This document shows positions 9,526 to 39,682 of a stretch of DNA of 40,970 nt, in pieces. The DNA lies in contig CAMCPM010000016.1 in the NCBI GenBank assembly GCA_945876755.1, positions 1 through 40,970 on the forward strand, written 5' to 3'. The notes under the pieces were generated by a model, which was given only the letters and a program-made list of their open reading frames with translations, ran no database searches and was not told the DNA's origin. The first letter of the stretch is position 1, and every line of letters begins with the position of its first letter. The translations under genes and the position numbers were made by a program. Source of the DNA: an uncultured Clostridia bacterium (GTDB lineage Bacteria; Bacillota; Clostridia; Oscillospirales; Ruminococcaceae).

Positions 9526-9553
9526 CGGCGGACAATTTCAAAATTATCCGCCG
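9526..9553 (-). terminator. Terminator of the pyruvate formate-lyase operon
   Basis: CGGCGGACAATTT and AAATTATCCGCCG form a 13-position stem with one mismatch and a tiny loop. On the minus strand it is followed by TATTTTTTTATTTTT. It lies 12 bases after the stop of the glycyl-radical subunit gene. Confidence 0.85.
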
Positions 9554-9564
9554 AAATTTTATTT

Positions 9565-9807
9565 TTACATGGATTTGTGGAACGTACGGGAAATTACATC
9601 ATCCTGCTGTTCCTTGGTAAGCTTGTTGAAATTTACTGCATATCCGGAAACTCTGACTGTGAGCTGAGGGTATTTCTCGGGGTGAGCCTGTGCGTCAAGA
9701 AGAGTCTCTCTTGTAAAAACATTTACGTTGAGGTGATGTCCGCCCTTGGAAACATATCCGTCAAGAAGCTCGATAAGGTTATCAACCTGCTGATTTGTAT
9801 TTGCCAT
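9565..9807 (-). CDS. Stand-alone glycyl-radical domain of pyruvate formate-lyase (GrcA/YfiD-like)
   Basis: This 80-residue protein corresponds to the C-terminal domain of ordinary pyruvate formate-lyase. GGHHLNVNV (22-30) is followed by [23 protein letters not shown], with the radical-bearing glycine at Gly55 in RVSGYAV, and the conserved end [18 protein letters not shown]. In enterobacteria the free homologue GrcA/YfiD repairs oxygen-damaged enzyme, but there the main enzyme still has its own radical domain. Here the core protein in the same operon lacks it, so this protein is inferred to be an obligatory partner in acetyl-CoA plus formate production. AAAGGAAG lies upstream, 14 bases after the previous gene. 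It must be activated by a radical-SAM PflA, not encoded in this window. Confidence 0.93.
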
Positions 9808-9821
9808 AGTAATCTTCCTTT

Positions 9822-10034
9822 CTATTCATCATCATCATCATCGTCGAAACCCTTGTGCAGGGTCGGCTGACAGCACGCCTGATTTCCCGTGCCGCAGTCG
9901 GTACTGTTAAAGGTCTGAACCGTCATATCTCCCGAATCGGGGTCGTTGACGGTAACATTGATATGCCCGCCGCCGTCGCTCATCAGGCGGTCGAGCATAT
10001 CGACAAGGTCGTTTATTCTTTTCTTTTCGTCCAT
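9822..10034 (-). CDS. Small protein resembling a truncated glycyl-radical domain, without the glycine loop
   Basis: This 70-residue protein lies between the lyase core and the free radical domain. Residues 6-29 ([20 protein letters not shown] and NVTV) align with residues 7-30 of the 80-residue neighbour ([20 protein letters not shown] and NVNV). The second half differs: there is no RVSGYAV loop, but a segment CGTGNQACC (Cys47, Cys54, Cys55) and an acidic tail of six Asp and a Glu encoded by a GAT/GAC repeat. Its start overlaps the core stop as TAATG, implying translational coupling. It could be a structural filler, a metal or redox protein, or an assembly factor. The function is unknown; the reading frame is well supported by coupling and by the next gene's ribosome site. 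Confidence 0.8.
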
Positions 10035-12103
10035 TAGCGAACCTCTTTTTCAAGGCGGTCAAGGTCAAGGTCGCCCATAAATATTGCGCCGTCCTTGCCG
10101 AGAGCGTCAGGAATTATCGAGAATGTGTTGGAGATACCGTCCTGAGCGTGTCTGAACGGAAGCTTTGCAACGCTGGAGAGGGAAGCAGTCGCACCGTTTA
10201 CGTCTCTGCCGTGCATGGGGTTAGCACCGGGAGCAAGAGGCTCGCCCATCTTTCTGCCGTCGGGAGTATTGCCTGTTTTCTTGCCGTATACAACGTTTGA
10301 TGTAATAGTAAGAATAGACATTGTAGGAATACTCTTGCGGTATGTGTGATGGCTTCTGATCTTATCCATAAACTTGCGGACGATATCAACTGCGATCTGG
10401 TCAACACGGTCATCGTTGTTTCCGTATTTGGGGAAATCGCCCTCTACCTGATAATCGACTACGATGCCGTTCTCGTCACGAATACACTTTACCTTTGCAT
10501 ATTTGATAGCGCTGAGTGAGTCCGCAACAACGGAAAGTCCTGCGATACCTGTTGCAAAATAGCGCTTTACTTCTCTGTCGTGAAGAGCCATCTGAAGCTT
10601 TTCGTAGCTGTATTTGTCGTGCATATAGTGGATAATGTTAAGAGTATTTACATAGAGTCCTGCAAGCCAGTCCATCATGTCCTCATACTTGGACATAACA
10701 TCATCATAGTCCAAATAATCTCCCTCAACAGGACGGTACTTTGGTCCTACCTGAACCTTGAGACGCTCGTCAACGCCGCCGTTGATTGCGTAAAGCAGAC
10801 ACTTTGCAAGGTTAGCTCTTGCGCCGAAGAACTGCATTTCCTTGCCGACAACCATTGATGATACGCAGCAAGCGATAGCGTAGTCGTCGCCGTGAACGGC
10901 TCTCATAAGGTCGTCGTTTTCGTATTGGATAGAAGATGACTTGATGGACATTTCTGCGCAGTATTCCTTAAACTTTCTCGGAAGTTTTGTTGACCAAAGA
11001 ACAGTCATGTTCGGCTCGGGGGCGCTGCCCAGATTATCGAGAGTGTGGAGATAGCGGAAGCTGTTCTTGGTAACGAGAGTACGTCCGTCTATGCCCACGC
11101 CGCCGATGGATTCCGTTACCCATGTGGGGTCGCCTGAGAAAAGCTCGTTATATTCGGGAGTACGGGCAAATTTGACCATACGCAGCTTCATGATGAAGTG
11201 GTCGATGTACTCCTGAGCCTGCTCTTCGGTGATAAGACCCTTGTCAAGGTCGCGCTGAATGTAAATATCAAGGAATGTAGAGGTGCGTCCGAGGCTCATT
11301 GCTGCACCGTTCTGCTCCTTAACTGCTGCAAGATAGCCGAAATACAGCCATTGAACGGCTTCCTTGGCATTTGCAGCAGGCTTGGAAATATCAAAGCCGT
11401 AAATTCTGCCAAGCTCTTTAAGCTCTTCAAGAGCCTTTACCTGGTCGGCAAGCTCCTCGCGGAGACGGATATTTGCGGAGGTCATTCTCACCAGCGAGGT
11501 TTCTATCTGGTGCTTTTTGTCGGCGATGAGCCTGTCCACGCCGTAAAGCGCAACTCGGCGGTAGTCGCCGATGATTCTTCCTCTGCCGTATGCGTCCGGG
11601 AGACCCGTAATAATTGCGGATTTTCTCGCCATACGCATTTCGGGAGTATATGCGTCAAAAACGCCCTGGTTGTGAGTCTTTCTGTATTTTGTGAAAATCT
11701 CAACGACCTCAGGGTCGACCTCATAGCCGTTTTCATGACAAGCGTTCTGAGCCATGCGGATACCGCCAAAAGGCTGGAGAGAACGCTTCAGAGGCTTGTC
11801 GGTCTGAAGTCCTACGATTTTTTCAATATCCTTGTTGATATAGCCTGCGCCATGAGAGGTGATAGTGGAAACTATCTTTGTATCCATATCAAGGACGCCG
11901 CCTGCTTCACGCTCTTTCTGGAAAAGCCCGAGGACTTCGCTCCAAAGCGCCTTTGTGTCATCGGTAGGCCCTGCAAGAAAAGATGAGTCACCCTCATACG
12001 GTGTATAGTTGTTCTGAATAAAATCTCTGACATTTACCGAACCGCTGCTCCAGCGGCCCAGTTTAAATCCCGCCCACTCAGCGGGAAGTTCTTTTGTCAT
12101 CAT
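10034..12103 (-). CDS. pflB: Pyruvate formate-lyase core subunit lacking the C-terminal radical domain
   Basis: The 689-residue product matches pyruvate formate-lyase (formate acetyltransferase) from near its N-terminus through [19 protein letters not shown] and [16 protein letters not shown], then stops at EKEVR. Typical enzymes are about 750-760 residues; the missing part is exactly the glycyl-radical domain, found two genes downstream. The catalytic pair is present as Cys412-Cys413 in [28 protein letters not shown] precedes the ATG. The enzyme converts pyruvate and CoA to acetyl-CoA and formate, central to mixed-acid fermentation. It is unlikely to be a recent frameshift: the C-terminal piece has its own start and ribosome site, and a coupled gene lies between. 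Confidence 0.95.
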
Positions 12104-12433: not shown

Positions 12434-14101
12434 ATGAATAATAATATATTTAAAATTTCCGATGAGCGCACAACACGCTTTCTTGCAAATGCTATGCTGG
12501 TTTGTACAGGGATTTTTGCTGTTTCGTGGGTGCTTAACGAGCTTAATATTTTCGTTATTGAAAATAAAGCTTTTACAATAGTATCTATTGCCAGCGGATT
12601 GATTCTCATTATACCCAAAGCAGCTCTTCTTATACTTAAAAGATATGAGGAGTGGATAAAATATGCTGTAATAGTATGCTCCACAGTTGCAATATGCCTT
12701 GCATACAGCGTGCTGACATATCATATGGTCATGATGTTTGCTTTTCCTCTTATAATGTCCGTAATGTACTTCGACCCGAAGCTTACCTTGTTCACAACAA
12801 TCGAAAATGCTGTTTTTATGACTGCAGCGCATATTCTTAGCTTTTTTCTTTCGGTAATGGACAGTGACCCTCTTAAAAGTATACATGCTGTTATTGTTTA
12901 CGGTCTGCTGCCGAGATTGTTTATTTTTGGTACATTTGCGTTAATATGTACTGCGCTCGGAAGGATCACTCATAAGATGCTTGAACGGCTGAATGATTCA
13001 AGTGAAGAAATTGAGCGCAGCAAGGAAAGCCTTGACACGATCATTACCGTTTCACGTTCGCTTTACGGAGCCTCGGATATGATAGAGCTTGCAAGTCTTA
13101 TCAGGTATGCGGTCTATACGGTAACTGCAAAAATTCAGGGAGATACCGGCGCTCCTGTTACTGCCGTCGGAGTGAGAGCAGAGGACGGCGCTTTCCATTA
13201 TCTTGACAACGACCTTAATTCCGGAATAGACATCGCCGCAGGCGGTTCGGTTAACGTTAAGCTGCCGAATATAAGCTTTTCCTACCCGATTGAAAGACAG
13301 AAGGTCTGGGATGACATACAGATACGCAAAAACGGCATAGGCATGAGCTTTTATGAAAACGGCGGATTGCTTTTTTATATTTCTTTGGAATTCCCTGTTG
13401 ATACAGATGATGTTCTGCTGAAAAATTCACTGAGTATCCTCTATAACAATATCAATATTGCAATACGTCAGACAAAGGTAAACAGCGATATTTTCAAGAC
13501 GCAGGAGTCGGTAATACTTTCATTTGCGGAAATTTCCGAATCGAAGTCACGTCAGACAGGCCAGCACGTTAAGCGTGTGGCGGAGTATGTCCGTGTTATG
13601 GCAGGCTATGCCGGATATGACGAAAAAAGTTGCGGAGAAATTGCTCTTGCGGCAATGATGCACGATATCGGAAAGCTTATGATACCGCCGGAGATACTTG
13701 AAAAGCCGTCAAGACTTACTCCCGAGGAATTTGCGGTGATAAAGAGTCATGTTACTTACGGCGAAAGCCTGCTGAAAAATTCTCCGGGCGAGGTAATGGC
13801 AATGGCACGGCGTATTGCTCTTCAGCACCATGAACGCTGGGACGGCAGGGGCTATCTCGGCTATTCGGGAGAAAAAATCGACTATATCTCAAGATTTGTC
13901 GCCGTTGCGGACGTTTTTGACGCACTTGTTTCAAAGCGTTCATATAAGGACGGCTGGCCGCCTGAGGAGGCATACAAGGAAATCGTCAAGCAGCGGGGCG
14001 CTCAGTTTGCTCCTCATGCAGTGGATATTTTTGTGAAAAGCTATGATAAAATACTTGAGATACTCAAACAGTACCCGGACCAGGTCGCTCAGTCCGCTTA
14101 A
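12434..14101 (+). CDS. Membrane HD-GYP domain protein, probable cyclic-di-nucleotide phosphodiesterase
   Basis: The 555-residue protein has about six N-terminal membrane helices (roughly residues 17-175), a coiled linker (185-205), a divergent middle region that may be GAF-like (210-345) and a C-terminal HD-GYP domain (about 355-545). Metal ligands are visible: His378, His410-Asp411 (MMHDIGKL), His439, His465-His466 and Asp470. The signature loop reads DGRGYLG rather than DGxGYPxG, so the GYP proline is Leu475. HD-GYP enzymes hydrolyse cyclic di-GMP or related dinucleotides. The N-terminus probably senses a membrane or external signal. It is transcribed divergently from the pfl operon; a functional link is only suggested by the shared region. 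Confidence 0.88.
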   Translation: MNNNIFKISDERTTRFLANAMLVCTGIFAVSWVLNELNIFVIENKAFTIVSIASGLILIIPKAALLILKRYEEWIKYAVIVCSTVAICLAYSVLTYHMVMMFAFPLIMSVMYFDPKLTLFTTIENAVFMTAAHILSFFLSVMDSDPLKSIHAVIVYGLLPRLFIFGTFALICTALGRITHKMLERLNDSSEEIERSKESLDTIITVSRSLYGASDMIELASLIRYAVYTVTAKIQGDTGAPVTAVGVRAEDGAFHYLDNDLNSGIDIAAGGSVNVKLPNISFSYPIERQKVWDDIQIRKNGIGMSFYENGGLLFYISLEFPVDTDDVLLKNSLSILYNNINIAIRQTKVNSDIFKTQESVILSFAEISESKSRQTGQHVKRVAEYVRVMAGYAGYDEKSCGEIALAAMMHDIGKLMIPPEILEKPSRLTPEEFAVIKSHVTYGESLLKNSPGEVMAMARRIALQHHERWDGRGYLGYSGEKIDYISRFVAVADVFDALVSKRSYKDGWPPEEAYKEIVKQRGAQFAPHAVDIFVKSYDKILEILKQYPDQVAQSA

Positions 14102-14162: not shown

Positions 14163-14209
14163 ATTCATAATGGATGATTTTTACTACGGGGACTGAAAGG
14201 GGAATAAAA

Positions 14210-15172
14210 ATGCCTGATATTATGGCAATCGGCGAAATGCTGGTTGATTTTACCGCCGTTACCGATAAGGACGGCGATATTTACTACAAACAAAATCCGG
14301 GGGGTGCTCCGGCAAACGTTGCGGTCATGGCGGCGAAGCTGGGTGTTTCAAGCGGTTTTATCGGCAAGCTGGGCAAGGATATGTTCGGCAAATATTTGAA
14401 GGAAACTCTTGAAAACGAGGGCGTTGAAACCAAGGGCGTTATCCTTGACAAGGATTTTTCAACGACCCTTGCCTTTGTCCGCAAGGGCGAGGACGGCGAG
14501 CGTGATTTCGTTTTTTACAGAAAAAACAGCGCTGACCTTAATCTTAATTTCAGCGAGGTAAATCTTAAGCTTATAGACAACTGCAAGCTGCTGCATTTCG
14601 GAGCGCTTACGCTTACTGCCGAGCCGTCAAAGTCGGCGGTGATAAATACGGTCGAATACGCAAAGCAGCAGGGCAAGATAATTTCCTATGACCCCAACTG
14701 GCGCGAACGCTTGTGGGAGTCCAAAGAAGCTGCGGTGAAGGCTATGAGAAGCGTTCTCAGATACGCCGATGTTGTAAAGGTATCTGAGCTGGAGCTTCAG
14801 ATAATTACCGACTGCGCAAATCTTCTTCCTGCAATTGCAAAGCTGCTTAATTCTGGAGTAAAGGTCGTGTGCATTACTCAGGGCGCAAAGGGCTGTATTA
14901 TTGCTACGAGAAAGGGAATCGAGCGTCTGCCGACTTTCAAGGTCGAAACTGTCGATACTCTCGGAGCAGGTGACAGCTTCTTCGGTGCGTTCCTTTCAAA
15001 GCTTGTTCTTTCGGGAAAGACAATGGACGAGATAGACATGAACGACCTGCGTGAATTTGCAATGTATGCCAACGCCTGCGGTTCGCTTAGCTCGACCAAG
15101 GTGGGGGCGATACCTGCAATGCCTACGCATGAGGAGATAATGGAGCTTATGGCAAAGGGACCCGAATATTAA
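14210..15172 (+). CDS. PfkB-family sugar kinase, probable fructokinase
   Basis: This 320-residue kinase of the ribokinase/PfkB family carries the N-terminal signature GGAPANVA (31-38), the DPNWR segment (161-165) common in bacterial fructokinases, and the C-terminal DTLGAGDSFFGAF motif with catalytic Asp255. It should phosphorylate fructose, or a close relative, with ATP in the cytoplasm. The start at 14210 is supported by AAGGGGA seven bases upstream. It has its own promoter and a strong terminator, so it is monocistronic. Fructokinase is preferred over 2-keto-3-deoxygluconate kinase from overall resemblance, not proof. Confidence 0.88.
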   Translation: MPDIMAIGEMLVDFTAVTDKDGDIYYKQNPGGAPANVAVMAAKLGVSSGFIGKLGKDMFGKYLKETLENEGVETKGVILDKDFSTTLAFVRKGEDGERDFVFYRKNSADLNLNFSEVNLKLIDNCKLLHFGALTLTAEPSKSAVINTVEYAKQQGKIISYDPNWRERLWESKEAAVKAMRSVLRYADVVKVSELELQIITDCANLLPAIAKLLNSGVKVVCITQGAKGCIIATRKGIERLPTFKVETVDTLGAGDSFFGAFLSKLVLSGKTMDEIDMNDLREFAMYANACGSLSSTKVGAIPAMPTHEEIMELMAKGPEY

Positions 15173-34526: not shown

Positions 34527-35255
34527 TTAGTTGTTAACGTAAAGCTGTTTATACGGGTTAGCCGTATTTGGAACAAGCTTGAAGAAGTGAGATTTGAGCA
34601 GTTCGTCTGCATTATAGCCAAAACTTGCGGCAAATTCCTCAACATCGGGACGTATTGCCTCTATATCTTCCGGGGAAGCGTCAGTGCATTTTACCTGAAC
34701 GGGAAGTCCCTTAGGAGCGTGTTCTGTACGGATATAAATTGCGCCGCCGTGCATACCTGTTCCGCAGAAGCTGCCTACGGGACATTCGTCCTCATGACCT
34801 ATACCAAGCACGATAATTCTTCCGCCTGCCTGATATTCGCCGAGAAAATCACCAACCTTTTCGCCGATGACTATCATAGGAATGTGGCTCTGGTATTCTT
34901 TCATATGGATACCTGCACGGTAGCCTGCGCTGCCCTTGATAAGTATCTTTCCGTCACGCATACCGTAGCCGGCTGCATCGCCGCAGTTGCCGTGTATAAT
35001 TATCTCACCCGAGTTCATAGTGTCTCCTGTCGCATCCTGAGCATTGGCGAAAACGTTGATGCGGCAATCGTTCAGATAAGCGCCGAGAGCGTTGCCCGGA
35101 ATGCCGTGTATTTCAATGTTTTTATCAGCGGCGCTGCTGCCGATATAGCGGTGTCCAAGCGCATTTTCAATAATAATATCTTTATCCTTGGCAGAGCTTA
35201 CAAGGTGATTCAAGTCCTTGTAGTGCATACCTGTCGCATTGATTTTAGTTGCCAT
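34527..35255 (-). CDS. Glutamate synthase GXGXG-domain subunit
   Basis: The 242-residue protein corresponds to the C-terminal beta-helix (alpha subunit domain 3) of bacterial GltB. Repeated glycine patterns are visible: GNALGAYL, GNCGDAAGYGMRDGKILIKGSAGYRAGIHM and VGDFLGEYQAGGRIIVLG. In fused GltB this domain supports the ammonia channel between glutaminase and synthase sites. The ATG at 35255 is preceded by AGGAGG and overlaps the end of the flavoprotein gene by 11 bases. It is the last gene of the split glutamate synthase operon. Confidence 0.93.
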   Translation of the reverse strand: MATKINATGMHYKDLNHLVSSAKDKDIIIENALGHRYIGSSAADKNIEIHGIPGNALGAYLNDCRINVFANAQDATGDTMNSGEIIIHGNCGDAAGYGMRDGKILIKGSAGYRAGIHMKEYQSHIPMIVIGEKVGDFLGEYQAGGRIIVLGIGHEDECPVGSFCGTGMHGGAIYIRTEHAPKGLPVQVKCTDASPEDIEAIRPDVEEFAASFGYNADELLKSHFFKLVPNTANPYKQLYVNN

Positions 35256-36492
35256 TTCCGACACCTCCTGCAAGCTTTTCATTTCTGCGTTCTCTTGTGA
35301 AAGCCATCATCTGCGGCTTATTTTTAAGCAGCTCGAAATCGCATTCGTCAATTGATATATGCTGCTTGATAAGAGATGTATAAATACCTGCGCGCTTTAC
35401 ATCGCCCATAAGGATAAAGCCTTTCAGCTCGTTATCCTTTGTGACAAGCTTTTTGTAGTTCTCCTTGCCGTCGGTCTCAACGAAAGCTTCTCCGTCATAG
35501 CTTCCTGCTGTGATAATGTGCAGACCGAAAAATCCGATAGCGTTCATAGGTATAGCGTTAAGGTAGTATGTTTCCTTGCCTGCCATATTTTTGCCTGCGA
35601 CCTCGCCCTGCATGAAAGCGTTGGGGAGAAGTGCAAGTATCTTCTGCTGTCCCGAAGTGATATCAAAGGATTCGGTGCAGTCGCCTGCGGAGTAAACGTC
35701 TTTCAGACCGTCAACAGCCTGTTTGTTGTCGGTAACGATTCCTCGGTTCACCTTTCCGCCTGCTTCGGAAACAAGTTCTGTATTGGGGCGGACGCCTACC
35801 GCAAGGATGACTATATCAAAATCCACGGTTTCGCCGTTGTTGAGTACAGCAGACTTTTCGGAAAATTTCTTCACGCTTGTACCGAGAATGAATTTCACGC
35901 CCTTGCTTTCGATATGCTTCTGCATAATAGCCGATGCTTCGGTATCAAGAATGGACGGAAGTATCCTGTCTGCAAGGTCTACGACGGTCATATCCGCACC
36001 GTAATGCTCCAGAGCCTCAGCAGCTTTCAGACCGATAAGTCCTGCGCCGACTATCAGGACTTTGGCTCCCTCGAAAATAGCTTCTTTAACGGCTTTTGCG
36101 CTGTCAAAGGTCATGAATGTGAACTTCTTTTCAACCTTTTCAAGACCCTCCATAGGCGGAACAAACGGCTTTGAGCCTGTCGCAACCATAAGCTTGTCAT
36201 AGCTTACCTCGTTGCCGTTTTCAATGGTAATAGTCTTTTTATCGGGATTGATCTTGATCACCTTGGTATCAAACAATGTGTCAACATCGTTTTTCTCATA
36301 AAAGTCCGTATCGCGGTAACGCATATTTTCTTCTGTAACTGCGCCTTTGAGCCAGTAGGAGATAAGCGGACGGGAATATGTGCTGTACTTCTCATCGGAG
36401 ATAATAACTATCTGACCTTCCTTGTCGTACTCGCGGATACCCTGAACTGTACCTATCGCAGCGGCGGAGTTGCCGATAATAACGTATTTCAT
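35245..36492 (-). CDS. FAD/NAD(P)-dependent oxidoreductase of the glutamate synthase operon
   Basis: The 415-residue flavoprotein belongs to the pyridine-nucleotide-disulfide oxidoreductase superfamily. An FAD-binding GNSAAAIGT motif lies at the N-terminus, an NAD(P)-binding VLIVGAGLIGLKAAEAL motif at about 146-162, and the second FAD segment at VYSAGDC. There is no CxxxxC disulfide, so it resembles NADH-ferredoxin, rubredoxin or nitrite-reductase-type reductases rather than thioredoxin reductase. It occupies the role of GltD: passing electrons from NAD(P)H through the ferredoxin subunit to the synthase. Its start overlaps the ferredoxin stop as TGATG, and a Gly-rich tail (GGVGNGN) ends it. 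Confidence 0.9.
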   Translation of the reverse strand: MKYVIIGNSAAAIGTVQGIREYDKEGQIVIISDEKYSTYSRPLISYWLKGAVTEENMRYRDTDFYEKNDVDTLFDTKVIKINPDKKTITIENGNEVSYDKLMVATGSKPFVPPMEGLEKVEKKFTFMTFDSAKAVKEAIFEGAKVLIVGAGLIGLKAAEALEHYGADMTVVDLADRILPSILDTEASAIMQKHIESKGVKFILGTSVKKFSEKSAVLNNGETVDFDIVILAVGVRPNTELVSEAGGKVNRGIVTDNKQAVDGLKDVYSAGDCTESFDITSGQQKILALLPNAFMQGEVAGKNMAGKETYYLNAIPMNAIGFFGLHIITAGSYDGEAFVETDGKENYKKLVTKDNELKGFILMGDVKRAGIYTSLIKQHISIDECDFELLKNKPQMMAFTRERRNEKLAGGVGNGN

Positions 36493-36941
36493 CAATCCTC
36501 GCCCCTTTCTTCAAATACGATAGCTCTGTTGGGACAATTTGCAACGCAGGCAGGTTCGCCTGCACTGTTTCTTGTGCAAAGCTCGCACTTTGTAATAGTT
36601 TTTCCGCCGTTTTTCTCGTCGATAACGATACAGCCGTAAGGGCAGGAAAGAACACAGGTATAACATCCAACGCATCTGCTGCCGTCGATTTCGATAACGC
36701 CGTTATTGATCGAAAGTGCGCCTGTGATGCATCCCTTAACACAGGGAGCATCTTTACAATGACGGCACTGAACGGCAAAGTTTATTCCGTCGCCCTCTTC
36801 AACGGTAATTCTGGGGACGGGAGCTTTATCAAGCTTGAAAGCCTTTGCCATATCGGTTTCACCGCTGTTGGCAAAAGCACAGTAATATTCACAGAGATGG
36901 CACCCTAAGCACCAATCTTCATTTACATAGACTCTTTTCAT
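36492..36941 (-). CDS. Four-cluster 4Fe-4S ferredoxin subunit, HycB/DmsB-like
   Basis: The 149-residue electron carrier contains 16 cysteines in four groups (11/14/17/21, 59/62/67/71, 90/93/96/100, 119/122/132/136), enough for four [4Fe-4S] clusters in the arrangement of HycB, DmsB and related electron-transfer subunits. No signal or membrane segment is present, so it is cytoplasmic. Its position between synthase and flavoprotein genes, with overlap to the latter, suggests it wires the flavoprotein to the glutamate synthase. Confidence 0.93.
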   Translation of the reverse strand: MKRVYVNEDWCLGCHLCEYYCAFANSGETDMAKAFKLDKAPVPRITVEEGDGINFAVQCRHCKDAPCVKGCITGALSINNGVIEIDGSRCVGCYTCVLSCPYGCIVIDEKNGGKTITKCELCTRNSAGEPACVANCPNRAIVFEERGED

Positions 36942-36974
36942 CTGTAAAACTTCCTTTCTTGGTGTTAAGGTCGA

Positions 36975-38480
36975 TTATTCGCCTGCGTGCTGAATGCCGA
37001 GGATATCAAGTTCTTTCTGGTTAAGACCGATACCTCTGAGCATGAGCCTGTTTCCGCGGAGGGATTCGATAGAGTTGATACCCATACCGCCCATCATTTC
37101 CTTTATCTCATGATCCCACGCATGAACGAGATTAACAAGTCTCTGATAGCCTATTTCAGGGTTGAGACGTTTTACAAGGTCGGGACGCTGTGTAGCAATA
37201 CCCCAGTTGCACTTGCCGCTGTGACAGCTTCTGCAAAGGTGACAGCCGAGAGCAAGCAGCGCAGGTGTACCGATATAAATAGCGTCTGCACCGAGAGCGA
37301 TGGCTTTTACCGCATCGGAAGAGGAACGAATGGAACCTCCGACAACGATGGAGACCTCGTTTCTGATACCCTCGTCACGGAGTCTCTGGTCAACTGCCGC
37401 AAGAGCAAGCTCAATAGGAATACCAACGTTATCGCGTATTCTTGTGGGAGCAGCGCCTGTACCGCCACGGAAGCCGTCAATTGCGATTATATCTGCGCCT
37501 GAACGTGCAATACCGGAAGCAATTGCCGCAACGTTATGAACGGCTGCAATTTTTACGATAACGGGCTTTTTGTACTCGGTAGCCTCTTTCAGCGAGAAAA
37601 TAAGCTGGCGGAGGTCCTCAATTGAATAAATATCATGGTGGGGAGCAGGTGAGATAGCGTCCGTACCCATAGGTATCATACGAGTTCTGGAAACATCTTC
37701 GCGAATCTTAGCGCCGGGAAGGTGTCCGCCGATACCGGGCTTTGCACCCTGACCCATTTTTATTTCGATAGCTGCACCTGCTTCAAGATAGCCCTTGAAC
37801 ACGCCGAAACGTCCGGAAGCTACCTGAACGATAGTATTTTCACCGTACTGATAAAAGTCCTTATGCAAACCGCCCTCACCTGTGTTGTAGTATGTACCCA
37901 GCTCTGCGGCTGCACGGGCAAGGCTTTCGTGAGCGTTCTTGGAAATAGAACCGTAGGACATTGCAGAGAACATTATAGGAATATTAAGCTCAAGGTGCGG
38001 AGGCAGTTCGGTATTGATGCTTCCGTCGGGATTTTTCTTTATTGTGCTTGGCTTTTTGCCAAGAAAAACCTTTGTCTCCATCGGTTCACGGAGAGGGTCG
38101 ATAGACGGGTTTGTTACCTGAGAAGCGTTGATGAGTATCTTATCCCAGTAAACAGGGTAATCCTTAGGGGTACCCATTGAAGAAAGGAGAACTCCGCCGC
38201 TTCCCGCCTGACGGTAGTTTTCTATCATTATCTGCTGGGTATAGTTTGCGCTTTCACGGAAAGCATTTTCATTTGGACGAATCTTCAGCGCACCTGTGGG
38301 ACAGATGCATACGCAGCGCTGGCAGTCAACGCACTGAGCGTCCTTGGTAAGCATTTTATCGTAATCCGCATCGTAGAAGTGAACTTCGTTTGAACACTGA
38401 CGTTCACAAGCGCGGCATTTGATACATTTATCGGTATTTCTGATTACCTCAAACTGGGCAGGAAAGAAGTTTACAGGCAT
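36975..38480 (-). CDS. Glutamate synthase FMN-binding subunit with N-terminal ferredoxin domain
   Basis: The 501-residue protein is the archaeal-type large-subunit core. A ferredoxin domain with two 4Fe-4S motifs (Cys19/22/25/29 and 50/53/56/60) precedes the FMN-binding TIM barrel of glutamate synthase (about 85-480). Landmarks are MFSAMSYGSISKNAHESLA, NTGEGGLHKDFYQYG, GQGAKPGIGGHLPG, IDGFRGGTGAAP and the cluster-binding CHLCRSCHSGKCNWGIATQRP. It converts 2-oxoglutarate plus ammonia to glutamate using reduced clusters. Its start overlaps the glutaminase gene by 10 bases. Confidence 0.95.
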   Translation of the reverse strand: MPVNFFPAQFEVIRNTDKCIKCRACERQCSNEVHFYDADYDKMLTKDAQCVDCQRCVCICPTGALKIRPNENAFRESANYTQQIMIENYRQAGSGGVLLSSMGTPKDYPVYWDKILINASQVTNPSIDPLREPMETKVFLGKKPSTIKKNPDGSINTELPPHLELNIPIMFSAMSYGSISKNAHESLARAAAELGTYYNTGEGGLHKDFYQYGENTIVQVASGRFGVFKGYLEAGAAIEIKMGQGAKPGIGGHLPGAKIREDVSRTRMIPMGTDAISPAPHHDIYSIEDLRQLIFSLKEATEYKKPVIVKIAAVHNVAAIASGIARSGADIIAIDGFRGGTGAAPTRIRDNVGIPIELALAAVDQRLRDEGIRNEVSIVVGGSIRSSSDAVKAIALGADAIYIGTPALLALGCHLCRSCHSGKCNWGIATQRPDLVKRLNPEIGYQRLVNLVHAWDHEIKEMMGGMGINSIESLRGNRLMLRGIGLNQKELDILGIQHAGE

Positions 38481-39586
38481 TTTCTTTTACCCTCCTCACT
38501 AAGATTTACAATGACAGGTTCACCGCCGCGAGGGCTTCTGATGTTGTCCACATCGGGACAAATCGCACGGATAGCACATTCCTCACTGGCAATATAAACC
38601 ATATCTCCCTTTTCCGCAACGACCATCGAACGGAGCTTCAGTCTGTCGTTAAGAGCCATAAGACCGCCCGTATATCCAAGAATAATGGAGAACGGTCCGG
38701 TGATAAGCAGGCTTGAAAGTGCATTGCGGAAATATTTCAATTTAGCTGCTTTTTCGGGGTCTGTTTTTTCCATAGCGTCAATTTCGCTCCAGAACGGTGC
38801 GGCAATAACGCTTGCTATGTCTTCAAGGCTCAGATTCTGTTTTCTGTTCAGGTAATCGAAAATATATGTAATTACCTCGGTATCTGTAAGAAGCGTACAC
38901 TTGTAGCCGAACATTTCTATAAAGCGTCTGTTGGCGTCATATGAGGAAATTTCGCCGTTATGTACGATAGTGTAATCCAGCAGAGAAAACGGGTGAGCGC
39001 CGCCCCACCAGCCGGGGGTATTTGTGGGATAACGTCCGTGAGCTGTCCAGGCGTAGCCTTCGTATTCTTCAAGACGGTAGAATTCTCCAACATCTTCCGG
39101 GAAGCCTACTGCCTTGAAAACACCCATATTTTTACCGCTTGAGAAAACGTAAGCGCCGTCAATATCATTGTTTATTCTAATAACGCACTGAGCAACAAAC
39201 TCTTTTTCATCAAGCTGTGACGATGCAATTTTTGTAGGCAGAGGATTCACAAAATAGCGCCAGATAAGCGGCTCGTTTATAATTGCAGGGATCTTCTTTG
39301 TAGGTATGCGGCTGAGATTTACCACATCAAAGTGACGGTCAAGAAAACGCTCTGTCTGTTCTCTTGCAGTGTTTGAATTGTAAAAAACATGGAATGCGTA
39401 CAGATCCTTGTACTCGGGATAAATGCCGTATCCTGCGAAGCCGCCGCCGAGACCGTTTGAACGGTCGTGCATATAAGAGATGGATTTCACAACGTCACTG
39501 CCGTTCAGCTTGTGTCCGTCTCTGCTGATAAAGCCGGAAATTGCACATCCGGAGGGAATTCTGATTTCTCCTTCTTTTAAAAGCAT
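38471..39586 (-). CDS. Glutamate synthase glutaminase subunit, class II amidotransferase
   Basis: The 371-residue protein corresponds to the N-terminal glutaminase domain of GltB. The nucleophile is Cys14 in PSGCAISGFISRDG; class II enzymes need a free N-terminal cysteine, so residues 1-13 should be a removable propeptide. Other landmarks are YAWTAHGRYPTNTPGWWGGAHPF and the NGEI segment. The ATG at 39586 is supported by AGGAG nine bases upstream; the longer open frame lies in the promoter and leader. It releases ammonia from glutamine for the synthase subunit encoded next. Confidence 0.94.
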   Translation of the reverse strand: MLLKEGEIRIPSGCAISGFISRDGHKLNGSDVVKSISYMHDRSNGLGGGFAGYGIYPEYKDLYAFHVFYNSNTAREQTERFLDRHFDVVNLSRIPTKKIPAIINEPLIWRYFVNPLPTKIASSQLDEKEFVAQCVIRINNDIDGAYVFSSGKNMGVFKAVGFPEDVGEFYRLEEYEGYAWTAHGRYPTNTPGWWGGAHPFSLLDYTIVHNGEISSYDANRRFIEMFGYKCTLLTDTEVITYIFDYLNRKQNLSLEDIASVIAAPFWSEIDAMEKTDPEKAAKLKYFRNALSSLLITGPFSIILGYTGGLMALNDRLKLRSMVVAEKGDMVYIASEECAIRAICPDVDNIRSPRGGEPVIVNLSEEGKRKCL

Positions 39587-39603
39587 ATACTCACTCTCCT
39601 GAA

Positions 39604-39649
39604 AAAATATCGGAAACCGTTGTAAAAAAAATCGGTTTTTTGACCCGAT
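39604..39649 (-). promoter_or_regulatory. Leader with alternative terminator-like hairpins before the glutamate synthase operon
   Basis: In transcript order: ATCGG (39649-39645) can pair with CCGAT at 39635-39631, which runs into eight T, a compact terminator. Alternatively AACCG (39637-39633) pairs with CGGTT (39619-39615) while the same ATCGG pairs with a second CCGAT (39613-39609), followed by six T just before the ribosome site. The folds are mutually exclusive. This suggests attenuation, not proven. Confidence 0.5.
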
Positions 39650-39653
39650 ACTA

Positions 39654-39682
39654 ATAATAACATATAAAAAAGCAATTGTCAA
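39654..39682 (-). promoter_or_regulatory. Promoter of the glutamate synthase operon
   Basis: On the minus strand TTGACA, 17 bases and TATTAT lie about 70 bases before the ATG; transcription should start near 39647, just at the leader hairpins. Confidence 0.75.

Follow-up and report, generated by a model that had tools for sequence, protein, structure and literature searches.

How does a pyruvate formate-lyase (PFL) operate when its glycyl-radical domain is encoded by a gene of its own? The question is raised by an operon in an uncultured Clostridia bacterium of the Ruminococcaceae. The window, i.e. the whole stretch of DNA analysed, is the 40,970-nt contig CAMCPM010000016.1 (assembly GCA_945876755.1), and the operon coordinates given here refer to it. 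It is not trivial for an enzyme split by nature to work, since E. coli PFL cut at a nearby position shows no detectable binding of the spare part in the accessible portion of the work describing it (PMC8683613). The original prediction had described a 689-residue core with Cys412-Cys413 and a radical domain present as its own 80-residue gene (RVSGYAV, Gly55), and had taken this domain to be an exchangeable subunit. Open reading frames and profile matches confirm the description. The interpretation is upheld in part, in that the domain is a separate subunit, the 80-aa protein termed GrcA3, on which the core must depend: the core is the sole PF02901 protein of its genome, and 31 genomes of the family have a truncated PFL only.

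The split operon

The genes are on the minus strand, in the order core, 70-aa middle protein, 80-aa GrcA3 and hairpin.

10034..12103, minus strand: PFL core subunit, 689 aa, C-terminal glycyl-radical domain absent (TIGR01255 match, alignment with E. coli PFL)
10865..10870, minus strand: codons of the active-site vicinal pair Cys412-Cys413 (sequence; PFL chain alignment; invariant in 40 aligned split cores)
9822..10034, minus strand: middle protein, 70 aa, with a GrcA-like N-half, Cys47 and Cys54, and an acidic end (sequence, profile comparisons)
9873..9896, minus strand: middle-protein stretch from Cys47 (9896-9894) to Cys54 (9875-9873) (sequence, alignment)
9565..9807, minus strand: GrcA3, free glycyl-radical subunit, 80 aa, with RVSGYAV and Gly55 at 9645-9643 (NF038360 match)
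9526..9553, minus strand: terminator-like hairpin 3' of GrcA3, a 12-pair stem with a T run

The start of the middle protein overlaps the core stop codon (TAATG). Terminator-like sites in the region number six, versus a mean of 2.5 in shuffles.

The core scores 1133.5 bits against the PflB model TIGR01255, over the family cut-off of 994.2, and its match spans profile positions 2-663 of 744; the 80-aa protein covers the remaining positions, 663-744. Aligned with E. coli PFL chains, the core reaches residue 680 and the 80-aa protein takes up residues 683-759; the alignment also identifies Cys412-Cys413 as the vicinal active-site cysteines of a PflB, both of which are invariant across 40 aligned split cores. 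The core therefore resembles PflB (E. coli PFL, PDB 1h16) in score, in the cysteine pair and in colinearity to residue 680. It differs in a profile match that breaks off at position 663 of 744, in a glycyl-radical domain that forms a chain of its own, and in the presence of an extra cysteine element, which in this genome is not on the core, whose own C-terminal tail has no Cys.

The 80-aa protein is a member of the NCBIfam family GrcA3 (NF038360; 167.3 bits, cut-off 158). That model is named as a cofactor, whereas here GrcA3 provides the one PFL of the genome with its sole radical domain. GrcA/YfiD (TIGR04365; PDB 6owr) is a free radical domain of the same kind; the 80-aa protein differs from it in score (102.5 bits versus a cut-off of 170, over profile positions 66-126 of 126 only), in lacking the N-terminal region, and in serving no intact PFL. 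A GrcA/YfiD spare part implies an intact PFL to repair, and the sole PF02901 match in this genome is the truncated core.

This last point comes from the organism's own genome (2.34 Mb in 43 contigs; completeness 99.69%), where a PF02901 search for a full-length PFL found none and returned one match, the 689-aa core. Besides GrcA3 and the end of the core, PF01228 matches one protein more, NrdD, the anaerobic ribonucleotide reductase (RNR). From these matches it follows that the radical domain of the sole PFL is the free 80-aa protein, and gene content indicates that GrcA3 would be the only radical domain available to the core. One PflA is above cut-off, on a contig other than that of the operon. 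The lack of a full-length PflB agrees with the original prediction.

The split is partly recognized already, through the NCBI GrcA3 model and two split-type cores in the PDB (38la and 38lb, both entered as 'Formate acetyltransferase'), which likewise lack the radical domain in the chain. The 38lb core carries the tail PDCACA and shares 83% identity with the core of Olsenella uli across 662 residues; 38la is possibly a cut construct. No free GrcA3 chain was found among 33 PDB matches to the 80-aa protein. The novelty of the original prediction is reduced by these entries, although a literature search, with most subscription journals outside its coverage, found no paper describing a split PFL.

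Distribution and phylogeny of split PFLs

GrcA3 is over cut-off in 31 of the 197 family genomes. An independent TIGR01255 search found 125 matches, spread over 124 of these 197 genomes; 86 reach positions 741-744, 32 stop at 663-677 and seven are fragments. By-eye comparison shows that 31 of the 32 short matches belong to the same 31 genomes that have GrcA3, and that each of these has one TIGR01255 match only, a truncated one; the TIGR01255 search with this comparison found no fused PFL of that type in the 31 split genomes. Within the genus, this PFL is found in five of 21 genomes, and all five matches end at 663-667. The four genus loci other than that of the window have the same three genes. 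The gene order seen originally is thus present in relatives; the middle gene, although the most unusual part, had been left undescribed.

A wider set of named loci consists of the best 80 of 575 relatives of the 80-aa protein in a contig search, a set biased towards close kin. In all of the best 80, a truncated core is just upstream of GrcA3 on the same strand; 49 of these loci also have a pflA match, in most cases a short distance behind GrcA3. These best 80 include Ruminococcus, Lachnoclostridium phytofermentans, Blautia caecimuris, Holdemania, Olsenella uli and Gastranaerophilales, among others. Across the phylum GrcA3 is over cut-off in two of 398 genomes, one of them the organism's own. 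Fifteen more free GrcA3 genes from other families of the order, found via weak middle-protein profile matches, adjoin cores with a Cys tail. An order-wide search for split versus fused forms gave a match in 186 of 384 genomes, from which no split count was drawn. Fused and split forms also occur within single genera (genus g108, with G108 fused and G188 split; genus g82, with G171 fused and G081 split), pointing to replacement or transfer.

The 32nd short match (genome G122) is a re-fusion, in which a split-type core, a linker with CDNC and a GrcA3-type domain form one 796-aa frame (L190, 284-2674). The GrcA3-type domain scores 144.3 bits against NF038360, under the cut-off of 158, and on the tree the protein is among the split cores on a long branch. 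The re-fusion suggests that core and GrcA3 behave as one working unit. Cysteines were looked for in the linkers of 32 ordinary fused PFLs (25 by script, seven by eye) and none were found.

In an unrooted tree of 117 rows (quick search, no bootstrap), all 84 split cores group together with the re-fused one (SH-aLRT 99), and the 32 ordinary fused PFLs are outside it. With a viral core and the two PDB cores added, the base of the split group is no longer clear. The dN/dS ratio is 0.01-0.06 for the core (12 of 12 pairs) and 0.00-0.06 for GrcA3 where computable, with dS often above 1 and many pairs near saturation.

Two minor features of GrcA3 loci can be added. A gap of at least 30 nt before GrcA3 is present in 42 of the 80 examined loci, where starts are heuristic and some rows are misassigned; 18 of these 42 gaps fold with z < -2.5 versus mononucleotide shuffles (L083, L086, L101, L139, L143 and others), and several form a near-perfect stem. 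The folded gap is possibly an mRNA stabilizer that raises GrcA3 over core. In L119 and L134, GrcA3 has a long C-terminal extension past FHSSL (frames of 138 and 139 aa).

The middle protein and a travelling cysteine pair

The middle protein has no family in the libraries searched. With Pfam (35 members), the best match is to an unrelated family at E 0.007, and Gly_radical appears in three of the 35 with a best E of 0.033. The copy from the window scores 19.8 bits against the NCBIfam GrcA3 model, far under cut-off, and has no PHROGs match at E 0.01. Its FlgK match (E 0.086) is under cut-off and was seen in one of 35 members, and a FlgK-like protein was rejected. The best PDB sequence match is a designed protein (E 0.0033), taken as chance. 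Some other glycyl-radical enzymes have Fe-S small subunits; no match to such a family was found with Pfam (35 members) or, for the window copy, NCBIfam.

Profile comparisons show that the N-half of the middle protein, which has no radical glycine loop, is related to that of GrcA3 (hhalign E 1.1e-7 over 31 columns). Its C-half has relatives in the tails that end the cores of other species (E 3.2e-7 over 22 columns; a score of 34.6 versus a maximum of 13.8 in 60 column shuffles). The Cys-bearing core tails read, for example, DCSNGACSSPTLFEGLD; these core-tail relatives have the Cys tail and no GrcA-like half. In the middle protein D15, C47, C54 and P57 are invariant in 35 of 35 aligned copies, and a looser alignment of 52 rows has Cys in 45 rows of the first column and all 52 of the second. 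Two conserved cysteines near the C-terminus, as in an RNR-type tail, are therefore found in both settings: C47 and C54 in the 35 copies, and two or more Cys in all 31 core tails whose locus lacks a middle protein. The spacing of the two cysteines varies, which is loose for one precise redox site and counts against a redox reading, as does the first Cys column of the 52-row alignment, filled in no more than 45 rows. The dN/dS of the middle protein is 0.05-0.15 in the eight of 12 pairs where it is computable, with dS often above 1; judged from these ratios, the protein evolves faster than its neighbour genes, yet is constrained.

The cysteine pair was counted in 75 of the 80 loci (the best 80 of 575), those with a core aligned over more than 550 residues; L105 was reassigned by hand. 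A middle protein together with a core tail devoid of Cys is found in 44 loci; the other 31 lack a middle protein, and their core tails contain two or more Cys. None of the 75 has both elements and none has neither. The five partial-core loci left out comprise two with a middle protein (L077, L118), two with a Cys tail (L131, L139) and one with neither (L142). On well-supported branches of the tree, at least six changes are needed for 'middle protein' and at least four for 'Cys tail'; this implies that the cysteine pair switched genes several times, yet was kept.

Three family loci (L026, L028 and L031) have neither Cys element inside the operon. Their genomes (G190, G111 and G177, respectively) contain an unlinked middle-protein gene, with E values of 5e-16, 4e-16 and a weak 1.2e-4, the last with RCAAGVC. 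The unlinked genes are at L199 1498-1701, L200 1498-1701 and L201 1495-1689; by eye, the L199 and L200 copies adjoin a deaminase-like gene, and the L201 copy, with RCAAGVC, is divergent. In six tail-type genomes the middle-protein profile gives weak N-half matches to GrcA3 (five) or nothing (one), and full-length matches (E < 1e-18) are found in only four of 394 genomes of the order.

The cysteine element looks new, and appears to be the novel part of the system. A 70-aa protein that accompanies the core, or else gives way to a tail on it, points to an unrecognized step in the loading or keeping of a glycyl-radical enzyme. Structure models of the middle protein and of a tail-type core are weak (mean pLDDT 69.4 and 71.7, respectively). 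The former predicts a helix at 3-19 and strands at 24-31 and 36-42, followed by a low-confidence tail that is the Cys half; in the latter, the tail is predicted to be without structure (pLDDT <50 for residues 652-701).

Viral copies

Free radical domains were found on 16 viral contigs; 13 are GrcA3-like (76-84% identity) and three are longer and YfiD-like. The contigs that carry free GrcA3 genes (L214-L226) are up to 333 kb long, and three of them (L217, L219 and L225) have a small activase-like match nearby. Several 'phage' records with core matches may be bacterial contigs by label and were excluded as evidence. The viral copies fit the notion that GrcA3 is a mobile part. Two viral contigs have the core in two ORFs. 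One contig, L216, encodes a 680-aa split core that ends SLGKDED directly before GrcA3. Middle proteins were looked for inside the 16 viral loci, and L216 has neither Cys tail nor middle protein within the 7.2-kb stretch examined, which argues against a need for the Cys element in catalysis as such.

Possible mechanism and alternatives

The locus very probably encodes a two-component PFL, and the separate radical subunit is strongly supported by gene content. The core would contribute the pyruvate/CoA barrel and Cys412-Cys413, and GrcA3 would complete the fold and contribute the radical-bearing Gly55; the unlinked PflA presumably activates GrcA3. Oxygen cuts glycyl-radical enzymes at the glycine, as described in the available text of PMC12288474. 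Because cleavage falls there, oxygen damage would cost an 80-aa protein and spare the core, and GrcA3 might then be exchanged. With the fragile part as a separate subunit of 80 aa, the idea of exchange is directly testable, and a two-part design is on offer. It should be pointed out that the hosts are, by name, gut and rumen anaerobes, so that routine oxygen repair is not an obvious need.

Work on E. coli shows what a split PFL may have to overcome. YfiD replaces the lost part of E. coli PFL; when the PFL is cut at residue 695, YfiD binding is undetectable and activation with YfiD is 32-fold less, and residues 696-733 were proposed as a recognition element (accessible portion of PMC8683613). 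The same portion reports that the cut PFL is activated 5.4-fold better by YfiD without its N-terminus than by whole YfiD, far below the pair of cleaved PFL and YfiD. This closest E. coli mimic suggests that a bare split is not wholly dead and that a third element need not be required. The natural core ends earlier than 695 and GrcA3 is without the YfiD N-terminus, so probably an added feature secures loading or activation, and the conserved cysteine element is a candidate for it.

This third element, the Cys pair on the middle protein or on the core tail, would serve the reusable core. The middle protein may dock at the radical-domain site via its GrcA-like N-half and, once docked, either flag the empty site for loading or activation of GrcA3, or re-reduce oxidized Cys412/413. 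The chances are about evenly balanced that the third element performs docking or redox service, the two taken together; redox service alone is possible and rather doubtful. The redox idea draws on class I RNR. The C-terminus of E. coli NrdA reads DDGCESGACKI, and re-reduction of the active site is ascribed to the cysteine pair on this flexible tail (PMC5704485, in its accessible text). NrdA shares a C-x2-G-A-C type motif (CESGAC) near the C-terminus of an enzyme with an active-site Cys pair; it differs in being an unrelated protein, and here the Cys pair, a candidate dithiol, is often on a separate protein. The boldest proposal is that the middle protein is a radical-domain stub that docks in trans in the vacated site and re-reduces Cys412-Cys413 by an RNR-like dithiol; the core would then serve repeatedly as the scaffold of expendable radical subunits, of which some are also encoded on viral contigs. 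Taken whole, it is tentative and unlikely. If true, this would make the middle protein a novel type of partner for glycyl-radical enzymes. The aminoacyl radical enzymes also vary the glycyl-radical theme, by altering the radical residue and not the chain (PMC11528403, as far as its available text goes). Against any need for a third element, PDB 38la ends LGKED, though it is possibly a cut construct, and the partial-core locus L142 shows neither element.

The strongest competitor, a real possibility that falls short of even chances, is that the Cys element is a handle for docking and activation only, which stands in for E. coli residues 696-733, and that the cysteines bind metal or fix the fold. 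A recognition element has been proposed in E. coli (PMC8683613, accessible portion), the middle protein has the helix and strand of GrcA in the profile comparison, and the model predicts helix 3-19 and strands 24-31 and 36-42 ahead of the low-confidence tail. However, the feature common to both architectures is the Cys tail, and the core-tail relatives do without the GrcA-like half.

The same relatives bear on a second alternative, namely a placeholder role for the middle protein, which would leave one of the two sites in the PFL dimer vacant or block entry of GrcA3 before activation. PFL is regarded as a half-of-sites enzyme. A GrcA-like N-half that lacks the radical glycine loop would suit such a role, as would half-site reactivity, which is termed hypothetical for E. 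coli PflB in the accessible part of PMC12338860. But species with a Cys tail on the core and no GrcA-like half show that a placeholder is not general, and this reading is improbable.

It is very improbable that GrcA3 acts as a spare part of the usual kind beside a core that is a PFL in decay or simply a cut one. GrcA/YfiD proteins are indeed known as spare parts (PMC8683613, accessible portion), but the 31 split genomes have no full-length PFL of TIGR01255 type, the core is under strong purifying selection, and the catalytic Cys pair is invariant in 40 cores. A sequencing or assembly error that broke one gene can be rejected with near certainty, as a 70-aa gene is between the halves and the same break recurs in all five PFLs of the genus, in 31 of the 197 genomes of the family and in every one of the 80 named loci (the best 80 of 575).

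Other genes of the window

A divergently oriented gene for an HD-domain (HD_5) protein, at 12434-14101 on the plus strand, adjoins the PFL operon, and a PfkB-family kinase is encoded beyond it at 14174-15172. At 35245-39682 on the minus strand, a pyridine nucleotide-disulphide oxidoreductase with a rubredoxin-reductase C-terminal domain is found beside glutamate-synthase and glutamine-amidotransferase domains in separate ORFs. Perhaps this set represents a second enzyme in split form.
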